IMG/VR virus record: IMGVR_UViG_3300005288_000006
Coordinates: 1-48,477 of that record
Strand: one strand, 5' to 3'
DNA: 48,477 bases
Source of the DNA: a virus
A model generated the notes under the pieces. The model saw only the letters and a list, made by a program, of their open reading frames with translations. It was not told the DNA's origin and made no database searches. This document shows, piece by piece, positions 6,572-14,420 of the stretch. A program made the position numbers and the translations under genes. How positions within the stretch are numbered: the first letter of the stretch is position 1; each line of letters begins with the position of its first letter.

Positions 6572-8005
6572 ATGGCAACGACCCACGAGCAACGCCTGCG
6601 CATGGCCTGTAATGCTGCGCTGAATCAGAACGCCATTTTTGGCTCGAACTTCCGCATGGCAATGATGCAAGGCATGGGGTCTGACGATAAGCGCAAATGC
6701 GCCTGGCAGGAATACGGCTGGAAAGAGAACCTGACGTTTACCGATTTTTTCAACCTGTACGAGCGCCAGGGCGTCGCGCACGGCGTCGTCGACCTGCTCA
6801 ACGAGAAGTGCTTTGAGACGAACCCCTGGGTTATCGAGGGTGATGAATTCGACGAGAAGCGCCCGGAAACCCCCTGGGAAAAGAACGTTCGCCTTCTCGC
6901 CAAGAAAGCCAAGTTGTGGAAGGCCTTCAAGACGGCTGACGCCTATCGACTGGTCGGTCGTTACTCCGCCATTATTCTGCAATTGGCCGACGGCAAGGCA
7001 TGGGACTCGCCGGTAGTCGGCGCGCGCCCTGTCATCAAGAAGCTGATCCCGGCTTGGGAAGGGCAGCTGACACCCGACAACATCGAGACTGACCCGCAGT
7101 CGGCCAATTACGGCGAACCGCAGTTCTGGCAGTACAAGGAAGGCGACGTGAAGCAGGCGACTTCCGACGACTCGATCGCGCCGCGTAACCTAAAGATCCA
7201 CCCCGACCGGATCATCATTATCGGCGATTGGCGTGCAGGCTCGAGCTTCTTGAAGGCCGGCTATAACGCTTTTGTCAACCTCGAGAAGATCGAAGGTGGC
7301 AGCGGCGAGTCGTTTCTGAAGAACGCCGGCCGCCAGATGCATGTCGACTACGATAAAGACGTAAACCTCGCTCAAATCGCCAAAGACTACGGCCTCAAGG
7401 AGGTCAGTGAGCTCAAGCAGCTTTTCGACGAGGAGGCCAAGAGCCTGAACAACGGCGGCGATCGGCTGATGATCACCCAGGGGGCCAGGGCCACCCCGCT
7501 TGTATCCGTCGTGCCTGATCCGCAACCGCATTATGACATCAGCATTCAGACCGTAGCAGCGTCGACCCGCATGCCTGCCAAGGTCATCGTCGGTATGCAG
7601 ACGGGCGAGCGCGCCAGCGTCGAAGACCTCAAGCAGTTTAACAAGCGCGGTCAGGGTCGCCGTGTAGCTGACCTCAGTGATGACAGCGATCAGATCGTCG
7701 AGCACTTGATCCGCATCAAGGTACTAGACGCAGCGCCACAGCGCGAATTTACCACTATGTGGGATGACCTGACCGAATCGACCCAGGCCGAGAAACTGGC
7801 ATTCGCCGAGCAGATGGCCAAGATCAATCAGGCCAACGCCGGCACGGGCGAGCCGCCGGTCTACCTCTCGACCGAGATGCGCGAGGTCTCGGGCTTCGAA
7901 AATGACAACGATCTGCAACGGCAGCGTGATGAGTTGGGCGAGCAGATCGATGAAAACGTCGAGCCTGTAACCGTTCCGCCAGCAGCCCCTGCGGCGGTGG
8001 CCTGA
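6572..8005 (+). CDS. Portal protein (DUF1073 family)
   Basis: A 477-aa protein matching the DUF1073 portal group: N-terminal NAIFGSNFRMAMMQGM, then FFNLYERQGVAHGVVDLLNE, GRYSAIILQLADGK, a long ISIQTVAASTRMPAKVIVG segment and the glutamine/glutamate-rich end. It forms the dodecameric ring at the capsid vertex through which DNA is packed. The stop overlaps the next start as TGATG. The ribosome site is poor (CTCCTTGAC before the ATG). It is on the opposite strand to the other capsid genes and far from the terminase, which is unusual. Confidence 0.85.
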   Translation: MATTHEQRLRMACNAALNQNAIFGSNFRMAMMQGMGSDDKRKCAWQEYGWKENLTFTDFFNLYERQGVAHGVVDLLNEKCFETNPWVIEGDEFDEKRPETPWEKNVRLLAKKAKLWKAFKTADAYRLVGRYSAIILQLADGKAWDSPVVGARPVIKKLIPAWEGQLTPDNIETDPQSANYGEPQFWQYKEGDVKQATSDDSIAPRNLKIHPDRIIIIGDWRAGSSFLKAGYNAFVNLEKIEGGSGESFLKNAGRQMHVDYDKDVNLAQIAKDYGLKEVSELKQLFDEEAKSLNNGGDRLMITQGARATPLVSVVPDPQPHYDISIQTVAASTRMPAKVIVGMQTGERASVEDLKQFNKRGQGRRVADLSDDSDQIVEHLIRIKVLDAAPQREFTTMWDDLTESTQAEKLAFAEQMAKINQANAGTGEPPVYLSTEMREVSGFENDNDLQRQRDELGEQIDENVEPVTVPPAAPAAVA

Positions 8006-10188: not shown

Positions 10189-10217
10189 AGCCTATTCGCC
10201 TTTACGCCTACTGTCAA
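10189..10217 (-). promoter_or_regulatory. Phage early-type promoter (repeat family)
   Basis: On the minus strand TTGACA, 17-base spacer ending AAAGGCGAA, TAGGCT. It drives 10155-8952 and starts right behind the terminator at 10223-10250. Confidence 0.82.
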
Positions 10218-10679: not shown

Positions 10680-10914
10680 TGCTCCGGCCCTCGTAAATGT
10701 TGATATAGGTCTGCGCCTGGTCGATAAGGTGCTGTTCGCTGAGGTCAACGCCCACACGGTCGGCAAGGCGGACCAGGTGTGGCAGCAGGTCCATCAGCTC
10801 GGTTAAGGCCGACTGGCTTTCAGTCAATCGCGCTTCATACCAAGTAGCAGCCTCATTAGGCGAGCTCCAGCCGATGTTGCGCCCTTGGTCCCAAACGTAG
10901 TTGTCGTTCTGCAT
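10666..10914 (-). CDS. Hypothetical helical protein (82 aa)
   Basis: MQNDNYVWDQGRNIGWSSPN followed by long helices (NEAATWYEARLTESQSALTE and LLPHLVRLADRVGVDLSEQH). The start overlaps the upstream stop (TGATG). Composition suggests a soluble helical adaptor. No family recognised. Confidence 0.72.
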   Translation of the reverse strand: MQNDNYVWDQGRNIGWSSPNEAATWYEARLTESQSALTELMDLLPHLVRLADRVGVDLSEQHLIDQAQTYINIYEGRSNDPV

Positions 10915-11114
10915 CAGCCCTCCCTCCTCAGCACCACGCCATTTTTACCCTCAATCAGCAGGTCTTTAACCGTGGACTGCTGAGGGTTTCGCCACAAGGC
11001 CGTGCCCTCCTCGCGTGCGTTCTCGGCCGCTACCCGACGGGCGCAAGCCCTGCAGGCGGCACGGACAACCTGGCCTATGCGGCCGTCAGTTGATTCGATC
11101 AGGAAGAGGGGCAT
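10914..11114 (-). CDS. Hypothetical protein (66 aa)
   Basis: Starts MPLFLIESTDGRIGQVVRAA with a basic, Cys-containing helix (CRACARRVAAENA) in the middle and a short beta hairpin at the end (LLIEGKNGVVLRREG). Overlaps the upstream small gene by 16 bases and the downstream one by 1. Unknown function. Confidence 0.68.
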   Translation of the reverse strand: MPLFLIESTDGRIGQVVRAACRACARRVAAENAREEGTALWRNPQQSTVKDLLIEGKNGVVLRREG

Positions 11115-11300: not shown

Positions 11301-11329
11301 AGGCTATTCGCCTTTAGCCGATCTGTCAA
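11301..11329 (-). promoter_or_regulatory. Phage early-type promoter; -35 fused to a stop codon
   Basis: Minus strand TTGACA, 17-base spacer ending AAAGGCGAA, TAGCCT. The TGA of the upstream gene (11326-11514) is inside TTGACA. It drives genes 11269-10398. Confidence 0.82.
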
Positions 11330-11514
11330 GGCAGGCGCATGACGATCGCTTCGAACTCACCCTCGGCCGTAACCTGGGTGACGAAAGGCAGCTCAGGCAT
11401 TGGCTGAATTTCGCCCGGCTTGTAGGGCAGTCGCTGCATCACCACGACATCTCCGTGCTTATCCATCTCAGCCTGTAGGGCTGCAATCACTTCGCTGATC
11501 AGTACCTGGGCCAT
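11326..11514 (-). CDS. Hypothetical protein (62 aa) behind a structured leader
   Basis: Starts MAQVLISEVIAALQAEMDKH (GAGG 8 bases before the ATG), then GDVVVMQRLPYKPGEI and a beta-type end. The alternation of a helix with a short strand and a GD turn resembles small phage 'MSxxLxxKxGD' proteins, but I assign no family. It lies 16 bases beyond the poly-T of the terminator at 11530-11562, so it is probably made only when that terminator is read through. Confidence 0.72.
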   Translation of the reverse strand: MAQVLISEVIAALQAEMDKHGDVVVMQRLPYKPGEIQPMPELPFVTQVTAEGEFEAIVMRLP

Positions 11515-11529
11515 CTCATCACCTCGAAA

Positions 11530-11562
11530 AATAAAAAGCCCCGCGCTTATGGGCGACGGGGC
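11530..11562 (-). terminator. Rho-independent terminator / possible attenuator
   Basis: Minus strand GCCCCG and CGGGGC arms around a 13-base loop, followed by TTTTTATTTTT. It lies between the promoter at 11919-11947 with its structured leader and the small gene at 11514. Confidence 0.88.
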
Positions 11563-11912
11563 AAGGGGGTCACAGGGAGCGCTTGGTGTGCTAGGTGGTG
11601 CAACGCCCTCGCAACTGGGCCTTTTCGTCTAACGGGGAGCGGGGCGACAATCTCCCCTGAATTGCACCAGATGAACGGCCTAAGCGATGCAGTTCCGACC
11701 TGATCCGGGTGCGACCCTTATACTGACGGCCTCTTTCTCAACCCGTTCATCTGGTGCAACTCGCCGCGTGTGCGGCCCCTAGTCTTTGGCGCTGGTTGTT
11801 CTAGATCCACTCTTCTTCGGTTTCAAGCATCGCTGCAAATACCTCGGTTGGCGTTGATCGGATCGCCCGAAGCTTGGAAGACTTCGGTTAAAGCTCGCTG
11901 AAAGCATCGACA
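11530..11912 (-). ncRNA. Candidate structured RNA or attenuating leader (about 380 nt)
   Basis: The promoter at 11919-11947 and the terminator at 11530-11562 enclose about 380 nt without a supported gene. Bases 11662-11678 (TTGCACCAGATGAACGG) pair perfectly with 11743-11759 across 64 nt. A third segment, TGGTGCAA at 11596-11603, could instead pair with TTGCACCA at 11662-11669, so two exclusive folds exist. A smaller CGAAG/CTTCG hairpin sits near the 5' end. The downstream terminator and gene make a regulated leader possible; a free-standing RNA is the alternative. A 43-aa frame near the 5' end lacks a ribosome site. Confidence 0.55.
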
Positions 11913-11918
11913 GGCGTC

Positions 11919-11947
11919 AACTTATCCGCCTATAGGCTATCTGTCAA
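11919..11947 (-). promoter_or_regulatory. Phage early-type promoter; -35 fused to terminase stop codon
   Basis: Minus strand TTGACA, 17-base spacer ending ATAGGCGGA, TAAGTT. The TGA of the large terminase gene is inside TTGACA. It reads into the structured unit 11912-11530. Confidence 0.72.
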
Positions 11948-13221
11948 CGCCTTTTTCCCATCAGCATGCCAACCTGACGGCCTTTCGACTTCATCACCTT
12001 CTCCACCGCATAGCGCAAGGCGTCGATGTAGTGATTGTACTTGTCGACGATTGTGCGCGTGACCTCGCCCGTGAGCCTGTCCACCTTGAAGCTGTAGCGC
12101 TTGAGCTCGTTCTGCACCTGCTGACAGGCCGGGTGCACGATGATGCTGTAGGTCTTCAGGTGGTCGATGCCATCCTCCACGCTGCCCGGACCTTTCACCG
12201 CGCCTTCGATCCGCTGCAGGTAGTCGTCTTTCGGCAGGCCGTTCGGCGTTTTGGCCTTACCCAGGTGGCTGATGGACTCGGGCCGCGCGCTATCGGCGAT
12301 CACCTCATGCTTGTCGATGCCCGGGATTCCCGCCTTGAGGAATTTAGCCGTGTCGTCGAGCTCTAGGCCGATCTTGCCGGCCTCCTTATCGATGTACAAC
12401 TCGGTTTCATCCGGCGATATCCAGCAGCGCACCGCGGCCGTCGGGTCCATCGCAAAGCCGAAGTCGAGGCCGTGATAGGGGCCGTGCCAGCTATCGTCCG
12501 GCCGCCGAATACCTTCGACCCATGCGCCTGCAAAGATCTTCGACTCATCGTTGGTCAGGTAGGCGCCCTTCCAGATCCAATCGAATTTAGCCGCGTCGAA
12601 TTTAGCCTTTTGCTTATCGCGCAGCTTGCGCAGGCCGATCGGGAACCATGGGTTGTCCTCGGCGTTCATCTCGACGATAGCGTAATCGGGATCGTTGGCC
12701 GCTACGTCAACCCGGAACCTGGTATCCGTCGGGCTACCTTCGTCTTTCGGGTTCCAGATCACCCATATCTCCGACTTAAGCTTACGCAGCACGGTGGCTT
12801 CGAGGGCCACCCAAGCGTCTTCGCTGATGTCCTCAGCCTCCTCGACGACCGTTAGATCGATGTTCGCCAGGGACTTGACGCTGGTGAGGTTGTTGTACAG
12901 GCCTTTGAACAGAAATTCTGTGGTGTTGATCGTCGATCGCAAATAGTCGATGCCGACGTCATAGGCTTTGGCTAACCATTCTTCCGAGGCGATAGCCGCT
13001 TTCAATTCAGCGTGAAACGAATCCTTGATAGACGACTGGATTTCACGCACGCACAGGATGCGCAGCGGCTCCACCACGCCCCATATGGCTGCCATCTTGG
13101 CGAAGGACATCGATTTCCCGCTCCCACGGCCGCCATGGGCCCCGCGGTAGGTCAGCGACCCCCGAGCCTTGGCGAACACCGGGACGAGCTTTGGCGGCAG
13201 CTTGACGACGGCGTTACTCAT
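11944..13221 (-). CDS. terL: Terminase large subunit (PBSX/Terminase_3 type)
   Basis: A 425-aa ATPase-nuclease that drives DNA into the prohead. Walker A GGRGSGKS is at residues 30-37 and Walker B-like DLTVVEEAED at about 125. The C-terminal RNase H-like nuclease shows HGLDFGFAMDPTA, VIADSARPESI and DKYNHYIDALRYAVE. ATG at 13221 overlaps the small-subunit gene by 8 bases. This terminase group usually packs by headful, consistent with a circularly permuted genome. It is unusually distant from the portal gene and on the opposite strand. Confidence 0.93.
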   Translation of the reverse strand: MSNAVVKLPPKLVPVFAKARGSLTYRGAHGGRGSGKSMSFAKMAAIWGVVEPLRILCVREIQSSIKDSFHAELKAAIASEEWLAKAYDVGIDYLRSTINTTEFLFKGLYNNLTSVKSLANIDLTVVEEAEDISEDAWVALEATVLRKLKSEIWVIWNPKDEGSPTDTRFRVDVAANDPDYAIVEMNAEDNPWFPIGLRKLRDKQKAKFDAAKFDWIWKGAYLTNDESKIFAGAWVEGIRRPDDSWHGPYHGLDFGFAMDPTAAVRCWISPDETELYIDKEAGKIGLELDDTAKFLKAGIPGIDKHEVIADSARPESISHLGKAKTPNGLPKDDYLQRIEGAVKGPGSVEDGIDHLKTYSIIVHPACQQVQNELKRYSFKVDRLTGEVTRTIVDKYNHYIDALRYAVEKVMKSKGRQVGMLMGKRR

Positions 13222-13993
13222 CGGCGGCAGGCTCCACAACTTCGGTCTGCGCCACCAGGGTGATCATCGTCGGCATTTGGGACAGCGGCGCCCCATTCTT
13301 GCCGGTCAGCTCCTTGCGATCGATCTGATAGCCGCACAGCTGCGCGTAGAAGACCCGTGCGGCCTGTTGGTCGTGCATCAGTACTTCGATATTGCCGTTA
13401 CGGTCGGTCTTGGCCCCCTTGTACAGCGCGCGACCGGCCTCGGACAGATCGCGGGTATCCGTGACGATCGTGACCTTCACGCCCTGGCCGTGGCACTTAG
13501 GGCAATCGGGATGAGGGTCAAGCGTCGAATTGAAGCCCATGCCGCCGGCCCAATCGGGCATTGAGGCGGCCACTCGCTTGCCCTTCTCATTGATGCGGAA
13601 GCCTTCGTCTGCCTCCGTCACGGCCTTCTCGAACTCGAACTCGCGCCACTGATACCCAAATCCCTCGCCGTGGCAATGACGGCAGCAGCGGGCCTCTACG
13701 CGCGTCAGCTCGTTAGGGTCGGCGGTGGCGATCAGCCAGGTTTTGTGTTTGAGCTCTTCGGCGCCGACATGGAAAGCCTCCAGTCGCTTGGCCCGTCGGG
13801 CCATCGCCGTCTCATATAGGGCCGGCTTGAGATGGGGCTGCCGCATCCAGCTATAGGAGCACTTCCTCGCATTGTCCCGACTGTAGCCGGCGGCGAGTGC
13901 GCTGTTGTACGGGTCGAGCGTCTCTTCGTAGCGCAGAATAAATTCCTGCTCACGGGCGTTCAGTTCCTCGAACCGGTCTCGGTAGTCGGCCAT
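13214..13993 (-). CDS. terS: Terminase small subunit with zinc-binding insert
   Basis: A 259-aa protein. The N terminus has the Terminase_2 helix-turn-helix pattern (LNAREQEFILRYEETLDPYNSALAAGYS, in parts) that recognises the packaging site. It is longer than the usual 150-180 aa because residues about 100-175 contain two Cys-pair knuckles, CCRHCHGEGF and CPKCHGQGV, of the DnaJ-type CxxCxGxG form, likely binding zinc. TAAAGGC precedes the ATG. It is followed by the large subunit. Long zinc-containing small terminases occur in some Pseudomonas and Burkholderia phages (general knowledge). Confidence 0.85.
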   Translation of the reverse strand: MADYRDRFEELNAREQEFILRYEETLDPYNSALAAGYSRDNARKCSYSWMRQPHLKPALYETAMARRAKRLEAFHVGAEELKHKTWLIATADPNELTRVEARCCRHCHGEGFGYQWREFEFEKAVTEADEGFRINEKGKRVAASMPDWAGGMGFNSTLDPHPDCPKCHGQGVKVTIVTDTRDLSEAGRALYKGAKTDRNGNIEVLMHDQQAARVFYAQLCGYQIDRKELTGKNGAPLSQMPTMITLVAQTEVVEPAADE

Positions 13994-14035: not shown

Positions 14036-14051
14036 TCCCTAGAGGTTCCGC

Positions 14052-14354
14052 GACTGCAGGGGATTGAATTTTGATCCCCTGCAGTCTACAGGCCACGTAA
14101 TCCGCGGGCTCCAGCCATTTCTGCAGGGGATTGCAGGGGATGCAGGGGTGGTTTCGCCGCCGCGCCAGCTGGCAGCCCACGGCCTACCGGCGCTGCCCTA
14201 TATTTATAATATCTAATCTATATCTACTACTTAAAGTAATACTCTGCATCCCCTGCAGAATCGCTACAGGCCACGTATTTAAAGGGCTCCAGCTGCAGGG
14301 GATCGATTTTAGCATCCCCTGCAAAACCGTTTTGATCCCCTGCATCCCCTGCAG
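14052..14354. repeat. Iteron cluster, candidate replication origin
   Basis: Nine full copies and one partial copy of TGCAGGGGAT occur in both orientations at about 14055, 14074, 14122, 14132, 14141 (partial), 14248, 14294, 14314, 14335 and 14344. The first pair forms a perfect 13-base inverted repeat (14052-14064 with 14074-14086). A composite unit, CTACAGGCCACGTA then GGGCTCCAG at identical spacing, is present twice (14086-14114 and 14264-14292). There is no gene here. AT-rich tracts at 14196-14245 and 14355-14420 flank it and the primase is adjacent, as expected of an initiator-bound origin. Confidence 0.7.
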
Positions 14355-14420
14355 ATCAATTATAAATTTAAATCGAACCGGCCTAATCGATTATAAATTT
14401 TACAAATTACATAAATTACA
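14355..14420. other. AT-rich tract beside iterons (candidate unwinding element)
   Basis: About 65 bp made mainly of A and T, with repeated TATAAATTT/ACAAATTACATAAATTAC motifs, lying between the last iteron and the primase terminator. A similar AT-rich stretch occurs at 14196-14245 between the two iteron groups. Such DNA melts easily; the role is inferred. Confidence 0.5.

Follow-up and report, generated by a model that had tools for sequence, protein, structure and literature searches.

What is encoded directly 3' of the terminase large subunit gene in this phage genome, where an initial annotation had described a promoter, a long inverted repeat, and a terminator, and had suggested either a switch or an independent RNA? 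The window, meaning the whole stretch of DNA analyzed, is a 48,477-base IMG/VR virus record with the gene content of a tailed phage. It encodes the large and small subunits of terminase, a tape-measure protein, and a tail fiber, as well as DNA polymerase A and a primase-polymerase. The capsid protein showed 49% and 39% identity with those of Pseudomonas phages vsMR and MR14, respectively, and because the relatives include these two phages, the host is likely to be Pseudomonas-like. The terminase large subunit gene (11944-13239, minus strand) is the upstream neighbor of the RNA unit examined here; the flanking genes and the RNA are all encoded on the minus strand.

The transcription unit after the terminase gene

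A promoter of the RNA unit was predicted at 11919-11947 on the minus strand (TTGACA-N17-TAAGTT, containing the palindrome GCCTATAGGC), and its motif extends into the final codons of the terminase gene. As the initial annotation had proposed, this promoter belongs to a family: the motif recurs in the window at 11329-11305 and 10217-10193, whereas 0 occurrences were expected in shuffles. The same motif was found directly 3' of the terminase gene in the related loci L002, L004, and L007. The family, TTGAC-N9-AWRGGCGRATA, is located at 2277 (plus strand) and at 10217, 11329, and 11947 (minus strand) of the window and is common to several related records. The locus L173 was rejected: the promoter family is present there, but L173 has no match to the window terminase, and its promoter heads protein genes.

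The promoter is followed by a leader (11783-11918, minus strand) with no detectable structure (z = +1.8). The unit ends at an intrinsic terminator at about 11527-11562 (minus strand; GCCCCG.CGC-loop-GCG.CGGGGC-TTTTTATTTTT). Folding gave a probability of 0.97-1.0 for its stem, which agrees with the strong terminator initially described before a 62-aa gene; a consensus terminator scanner missed it because of a bulge in the stem. The 62-aa ORF (11326-11514, minus strand) is located directly 3' of the terminator, lacks its own promoter, and is outside the conserved unit. No homologue of this ORF was detected in any relative locus searched, and it had no PHROGs or Pfam match. A 42-aa ORF at 11779-11907 had no match among the relative loci searched, and no protein is supported in the RNA region, just as the initial annotation had held.

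The P1-P2-third-arm element and its homologues

The region contains the perfect 17-bp inverted repeat that had been noticed from the sequence (arms TTGCACCAGATGAACGG, at 11662-11678 and 11743-11759), and the repeat extends to 20 bp with one G-U pair (11659-11678 / 11743-11762). When the whole window was simulated 60 times with a Markov model, the longest arm was 15 bp, against the 17 bp observed, and the inverted repeat is not a product of chance. On the minus strand, a P1 hairpin (11763-11776, GCCGC-ACAC-GCGGC) directly precedes P2, a clamp consisting of a 5' arm (11743-11762, GAGTTGCACCAGATGAACGG) and a 3' arm (11659-11678, CCGTTCATCTGGTGCAATTC), inside which a variable insert of 64 nt (11679-11742) is held. 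A third arm at 11596-11603 of the same strand (TTGCACCA) repeats the outer part of the 5' arm and can pair with 11662-11669 (P3); its plus-strand letters, TGGTGCAA, complement the left arm, as had been claimed. The third arm alone is weak in the window (p of about 0.014, a borderline coincidence), whereas three of the other four instances have a strong one (p <= 0.0005). The fold z-scores against shuffles were -5.0 for the minus strand and -2.8 for the plus strand.

In the window, no Rfam match above the gathering cut-off was obtained (GOLLD, ROOL, and others), and none was meaningful at a relaxed E-value; the insert likewise matched nothing known in the Rfam search, including that at the relaxed E-value. 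Neither a tRNA (by ARAGORN or Rfam) nor an abiF RNA (RF03085) was detected in the window.

Relatives comprised 79 loci from a protein search with the terminase, together with MR14 from a DNA search (blastn), in which a marginal match proved real on closer comparison. The same frame was found directly after the terminase gene in L002 (terminase 91% identical), in two tandem copies (E1 and E2) in MR14, whose terminase differs, and in L007, where the stem sequence is wholly unrelated; the element is known from five instances in all. The frame consists, in order, of P1 (CCGC-NNNN-GCGG), the P2 clamp of 17-30 bp, a spacer of 45-65 nt (measured in the four cases detected), and the third arm, and a terminator ends the unit. 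P1 is clear in four of the five instances and was kept as GCCGC-CGAC-GCGGC in L002, CCGC-ACGT-GCGG in MR14 E1, and CCGC-ACAC-GCGG in L007.

Six compensated pairs were observed in P2 across the four letter-related copies. The wobbles in P2 are all G-U in the minus-strand RNA, whereas a plus-strand transcript would have A-C mismatches at these places. Pairing between the third arm and the 3' arm covers 9, 12, 11, 13, and 9 bp in the five instances, and the third arm changes together with the 3' arm, as seen in MR14 E1 (CAGCTGCACCA/TGGTGCAGCTG) and E2 (GATCAATTGCACC/GGTGCAATTGATC). The compensatory changes and the minus-strand folding bear out the structured RNA of the initial annotation, and the window region is very probably an independent RNA of this kind, as predicted from sequence. 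By the same comparison, the P1-P2-third-arm frame appears as a new RNA element among the accessory structured RNAs of phages.

The insert behaves differently from the frame. Between the window and L002, the frame is 90% identical, compared with 82.5% for the terminase DNA, whereas the inserts are unalignable, no better than shuffled sequences. In MR14 E1 the insert is a tRNA-like cloverleaf (RF00005, 30.9 bits against a gathering score of 29) with a 4-nt anticodon loop, and its acceptor stem runs straight into the 30-bp clamp.

Two-arm pattern searches recovered only L002 from IMG/VR and none from the GTDB species representatives, among which, accordingly, no host RNA similar to the element was detected; a plasmid search gave no match. 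Several candidates were discarded: among the IMG/VR contigs with the exact 17-mer, four of five had a single arm without a partner and the fifth (L085) ends at the arm; the Rhizobium phage matches of the first blastn covered the terminator region only; and the P. syringae phages Orimi01 and Orisa01-03 have the terminator alone in common, with a different small RNA-like stretch at that place.

The slot after the terminase gene in related phages

In all relatives, the slot is bounded at its other end by a small protein (window 10914-11114). L003 and L057 lack the element despite having the same terminase (86% and 78% identical, respectively): in L003 the slot is empty and the small protein directly follows the terminase, and in L057 a short promoter-terminator unit alone remains. 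The gene downstream of the terminator differs between relatives. In L002 and L004 this gene has its own promoter of the same family, and in MR14 and L007 a TTGAC motif was recognized by eye after the terminator, so that the next gene appears self-promoted. Because closer relatives lack the element, the 62-aa gene was not detected in any of the relatives searched, and the terminator stem forms regardless of the third arm, the RNA unit is, on sequence comparison, independent and accessory.

The transcription unit of L002 carries, in this order, a tRNA-Asp, an abiF motif (6690-6727, 43.5 bits against an Rfam gathering score of 37), and the clamp element. The same unit contains a tRNA-like RNA (6584-6688) that also occurs in L007 (6644-6748); an extended arm replaces its anticodon loop, and the T-arm co-varies. 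The abiF RNA is a non-coding antitoxin RNA working in trans, and that of C. difficile neutralizes the AbiF toxin by direct binding (PMC12373285). The motif scored above the cut-off in 12 of 369 sampled gammaproteobacterial genomes, and most of these bacterial motifs lie ~110-160 nt upstream of an Abi_2 gene. Since the bacterial motifs are usually just upstream of an Abi_2 gene and the L002 record contains no Abi_2 protein anywhere, the phage copy is considered an orphan. PF07751 was absent from the records of the window, L002, L007, MR14, L004, and L057. Orphan abiF matches were also observed in four bacterial genomes. Near position 1500 of L212, a bacterial genome, an abiF match over the cut-off has no Abi_2 nearby, and the frames around it resemble a type I restriction-modification locus.

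The slot of L004 is filled otherwise, by two unannotated RNA families common to very different phages, neither of which had an Rfam match. Family A (L004 5019-5153) is conserved in Pseudomonas phages PAJU2, Shamal, YA3, and P7869, in Cronobacter phage ES2, and in an E. coli phage; in PAJU2 and ES2 it is located between the antiterminator and lysis genes. Family B (L004 5280-5394, AGAACTAAAACGAGGCG...GGTAATCAG) is also present in the jumbo phages Psa21 and D6, Phage TPWB-08, and Vibrio phages, and it adjoins tRNA genes in Psa21 and TPWB-08.

Proposed role of the RNA

The architecture, the covariation, the strand, the modular insert, the independence from neighbor genes, and the accessory distribution are directly supported. 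An independent phage RNA, for example a decoy, had been offered as one explanation from the outset, and it gains support from the unit's own promoter and terminator, the compensatory changes, and the presence or absence of the element between relatives. We favor a decoy or mimic, probably directed against host defenses, but hold this reading tentatively, at a little short of an even chance. The stand-alone transcription unit would produce an accessory non-coding phage RNA, in which P2 would stabilize and display the freely exchanged insert and a conserved UUGCACC; what is displayed may, as a decoy or mimic, bind a host factor, probably a defense or toxin protein. With the third arm present, one UUGCACCA copy may stay unpaired no matter which of the two the 3' arm pairs with; alternatively, the third arm may pair in trans. 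We infer the counter-defense role from the company in the slot of close relatives, namely the orphan abiF motif, the tRNA-Asp, the tRNA-like RNAs without an anticodon loop, and the other phage RNA families. For the window this role rests on neighbors in other phages, because the window itself has no abiF motif or tRNA. The slot contents suggest a place for trans-acting accessory RNAs, for which counter-defense would be the best single reading.

The element can be compared with known RNA systems. In the escape of PhiTE from ToxIN, a phage pseudo-ToxI mimics an RNA antitoxin and forms a repeat array; the element is without such repeats. The L002 unit is like the AbiF/Abi_2 antitoxin system in its abiF motif (RF03085), which is an orphan there without a toxin gene, whereas the window has no match to the model and its P1-P2-third-arm frame is a different structure. 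An RNA anti-CRISPR (Racr) is a solitary phage RNA unit that stands behind its own promoter and acts as a mimic (PMC10651486). The element is likewise a solitary phage RNA unit with its own promoter, but it has a much longer perfect helix, and beyond the nine-letter resemblance described below no CRISPR repeat was recognized in it. The cabRNA of staphylococcal phages, a structured RNA, triggers CBASS and has the terminase genes as its template (PMC10686824); the element is also a structured RNA of the terminase region, but its unit is distinct, lies 3' of the terminase gene, and occurs in some members of one phage group. The phage RNAs GOLLD and ROOL are large and structured, lie close to tRNA genes, and in some cases contain a tRNA (PMC12286853), and the element is partly like them as a structured phage RNA with tRNA neighbors or a tRNA-like insert in relatives. 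In contrast to GOLLD and ROOL, the window element is smaller, lacks an Rfam match, and is built on a single long clamp, not on an ornate fold of many helices.

That the element is an accessory structured phage RNA with another role in trans (as a regulatory sRNA, in connection with translation or the ribosome, or as a scaffold), without a link to defense, is a serious possibility, if not a probable one. The covariation, the conservation of the frame, and the minus-strand folding fit it equally; GOLLD and ROOL, which occur near phage tRNA islands, are likewise of unknown function (PMC12286853), and the accompanying tRNA-Asp could serve translation. However, an arms-race locus would better account for the orphan abiF motif in the L002 unit and for the exchange of inserts.

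An attenuator or switch of the 62-aa gene, in which P2 and the third arm compete as initially suggested, is improbable. Although the third arm is real and co-varies, and no promoter separates the terminator of the window from the 62-aa gene, both conformers of the window (the P2 and third-arm folds) contain the terminator stem, which does not overlap the third arm. Moreover, forced third-arm pairing costs 16.5 kcal/mol relative to P2 in the window and 4.7-10.5 kcal/mol in the other instances, leaving P2 better by about 5-16 kcal/mol. An attenuator should not precede unrelated genes, whereas here the downstream gene varies, as described above for the 62-aa gene and the separately promoted genes of L002 and L004.

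We consider it quite improbable that the locus acts at the DNA level, as a packaging site, an origin, or a mobile hairpin near terminase, although the perfect inverted repeat adjoins the terminase gene and MR14 has two tandem copies. The wobble pairs and the orientation of promoter and terminator favor RNA, and L007 has the same architecture with different arms, which argues against a transposon end. Relatives with the same terminase lack the element; since phages that share a terminase would all be expected to have an RNA required for packaging, the absence in L003 and L057, together with its presence beside a different terminase in MR14, also makes the packaging-related RNA of the initial annotation unlikely. 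A better origin or packaging candidate is a cluster of TGCAGGGGAT repeats at 14050-14370, between the terminase small subunit and primase genes, which is a possible site of this kind. A different repeat, TTGCCGAGTATGCCGAG, was observed near 3970 in L002.

The arm end GATGAACCG resembles, over the nine letters GATGAAC(C/G)G, what we take to be the 3' end of type I-E CRISPR repeats, and Racrs of type I-E act in P. aeruginosa (PMC10651486), but an RNA anti-CRISPR of this type is very improbable in that these letters lie inside a perfect helix, the window has GATGAACGG at this place, L007 is without the letters, and no repeat hairpin is apparent.

To return to the decoy or mimic reading, a wider form of it is possible, though less likely than not: the slot, a single frame of phage promoter and terminator, would be a modular RNA counter-defense site in which abiF mimics, tRNA or tRNA-like decoys, and clamp-held payloads are swapped between related phages, with the clamp and third arm as a general scaffold for decoy display. 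If this is true, phages carry RNA-only counter-defense cassettes that are missed by protein-centered annotation, the slot after terminase would be a place to look for RNA counter-defenses, and stable decoy RNAs would have a natural scaffold in the clamp.
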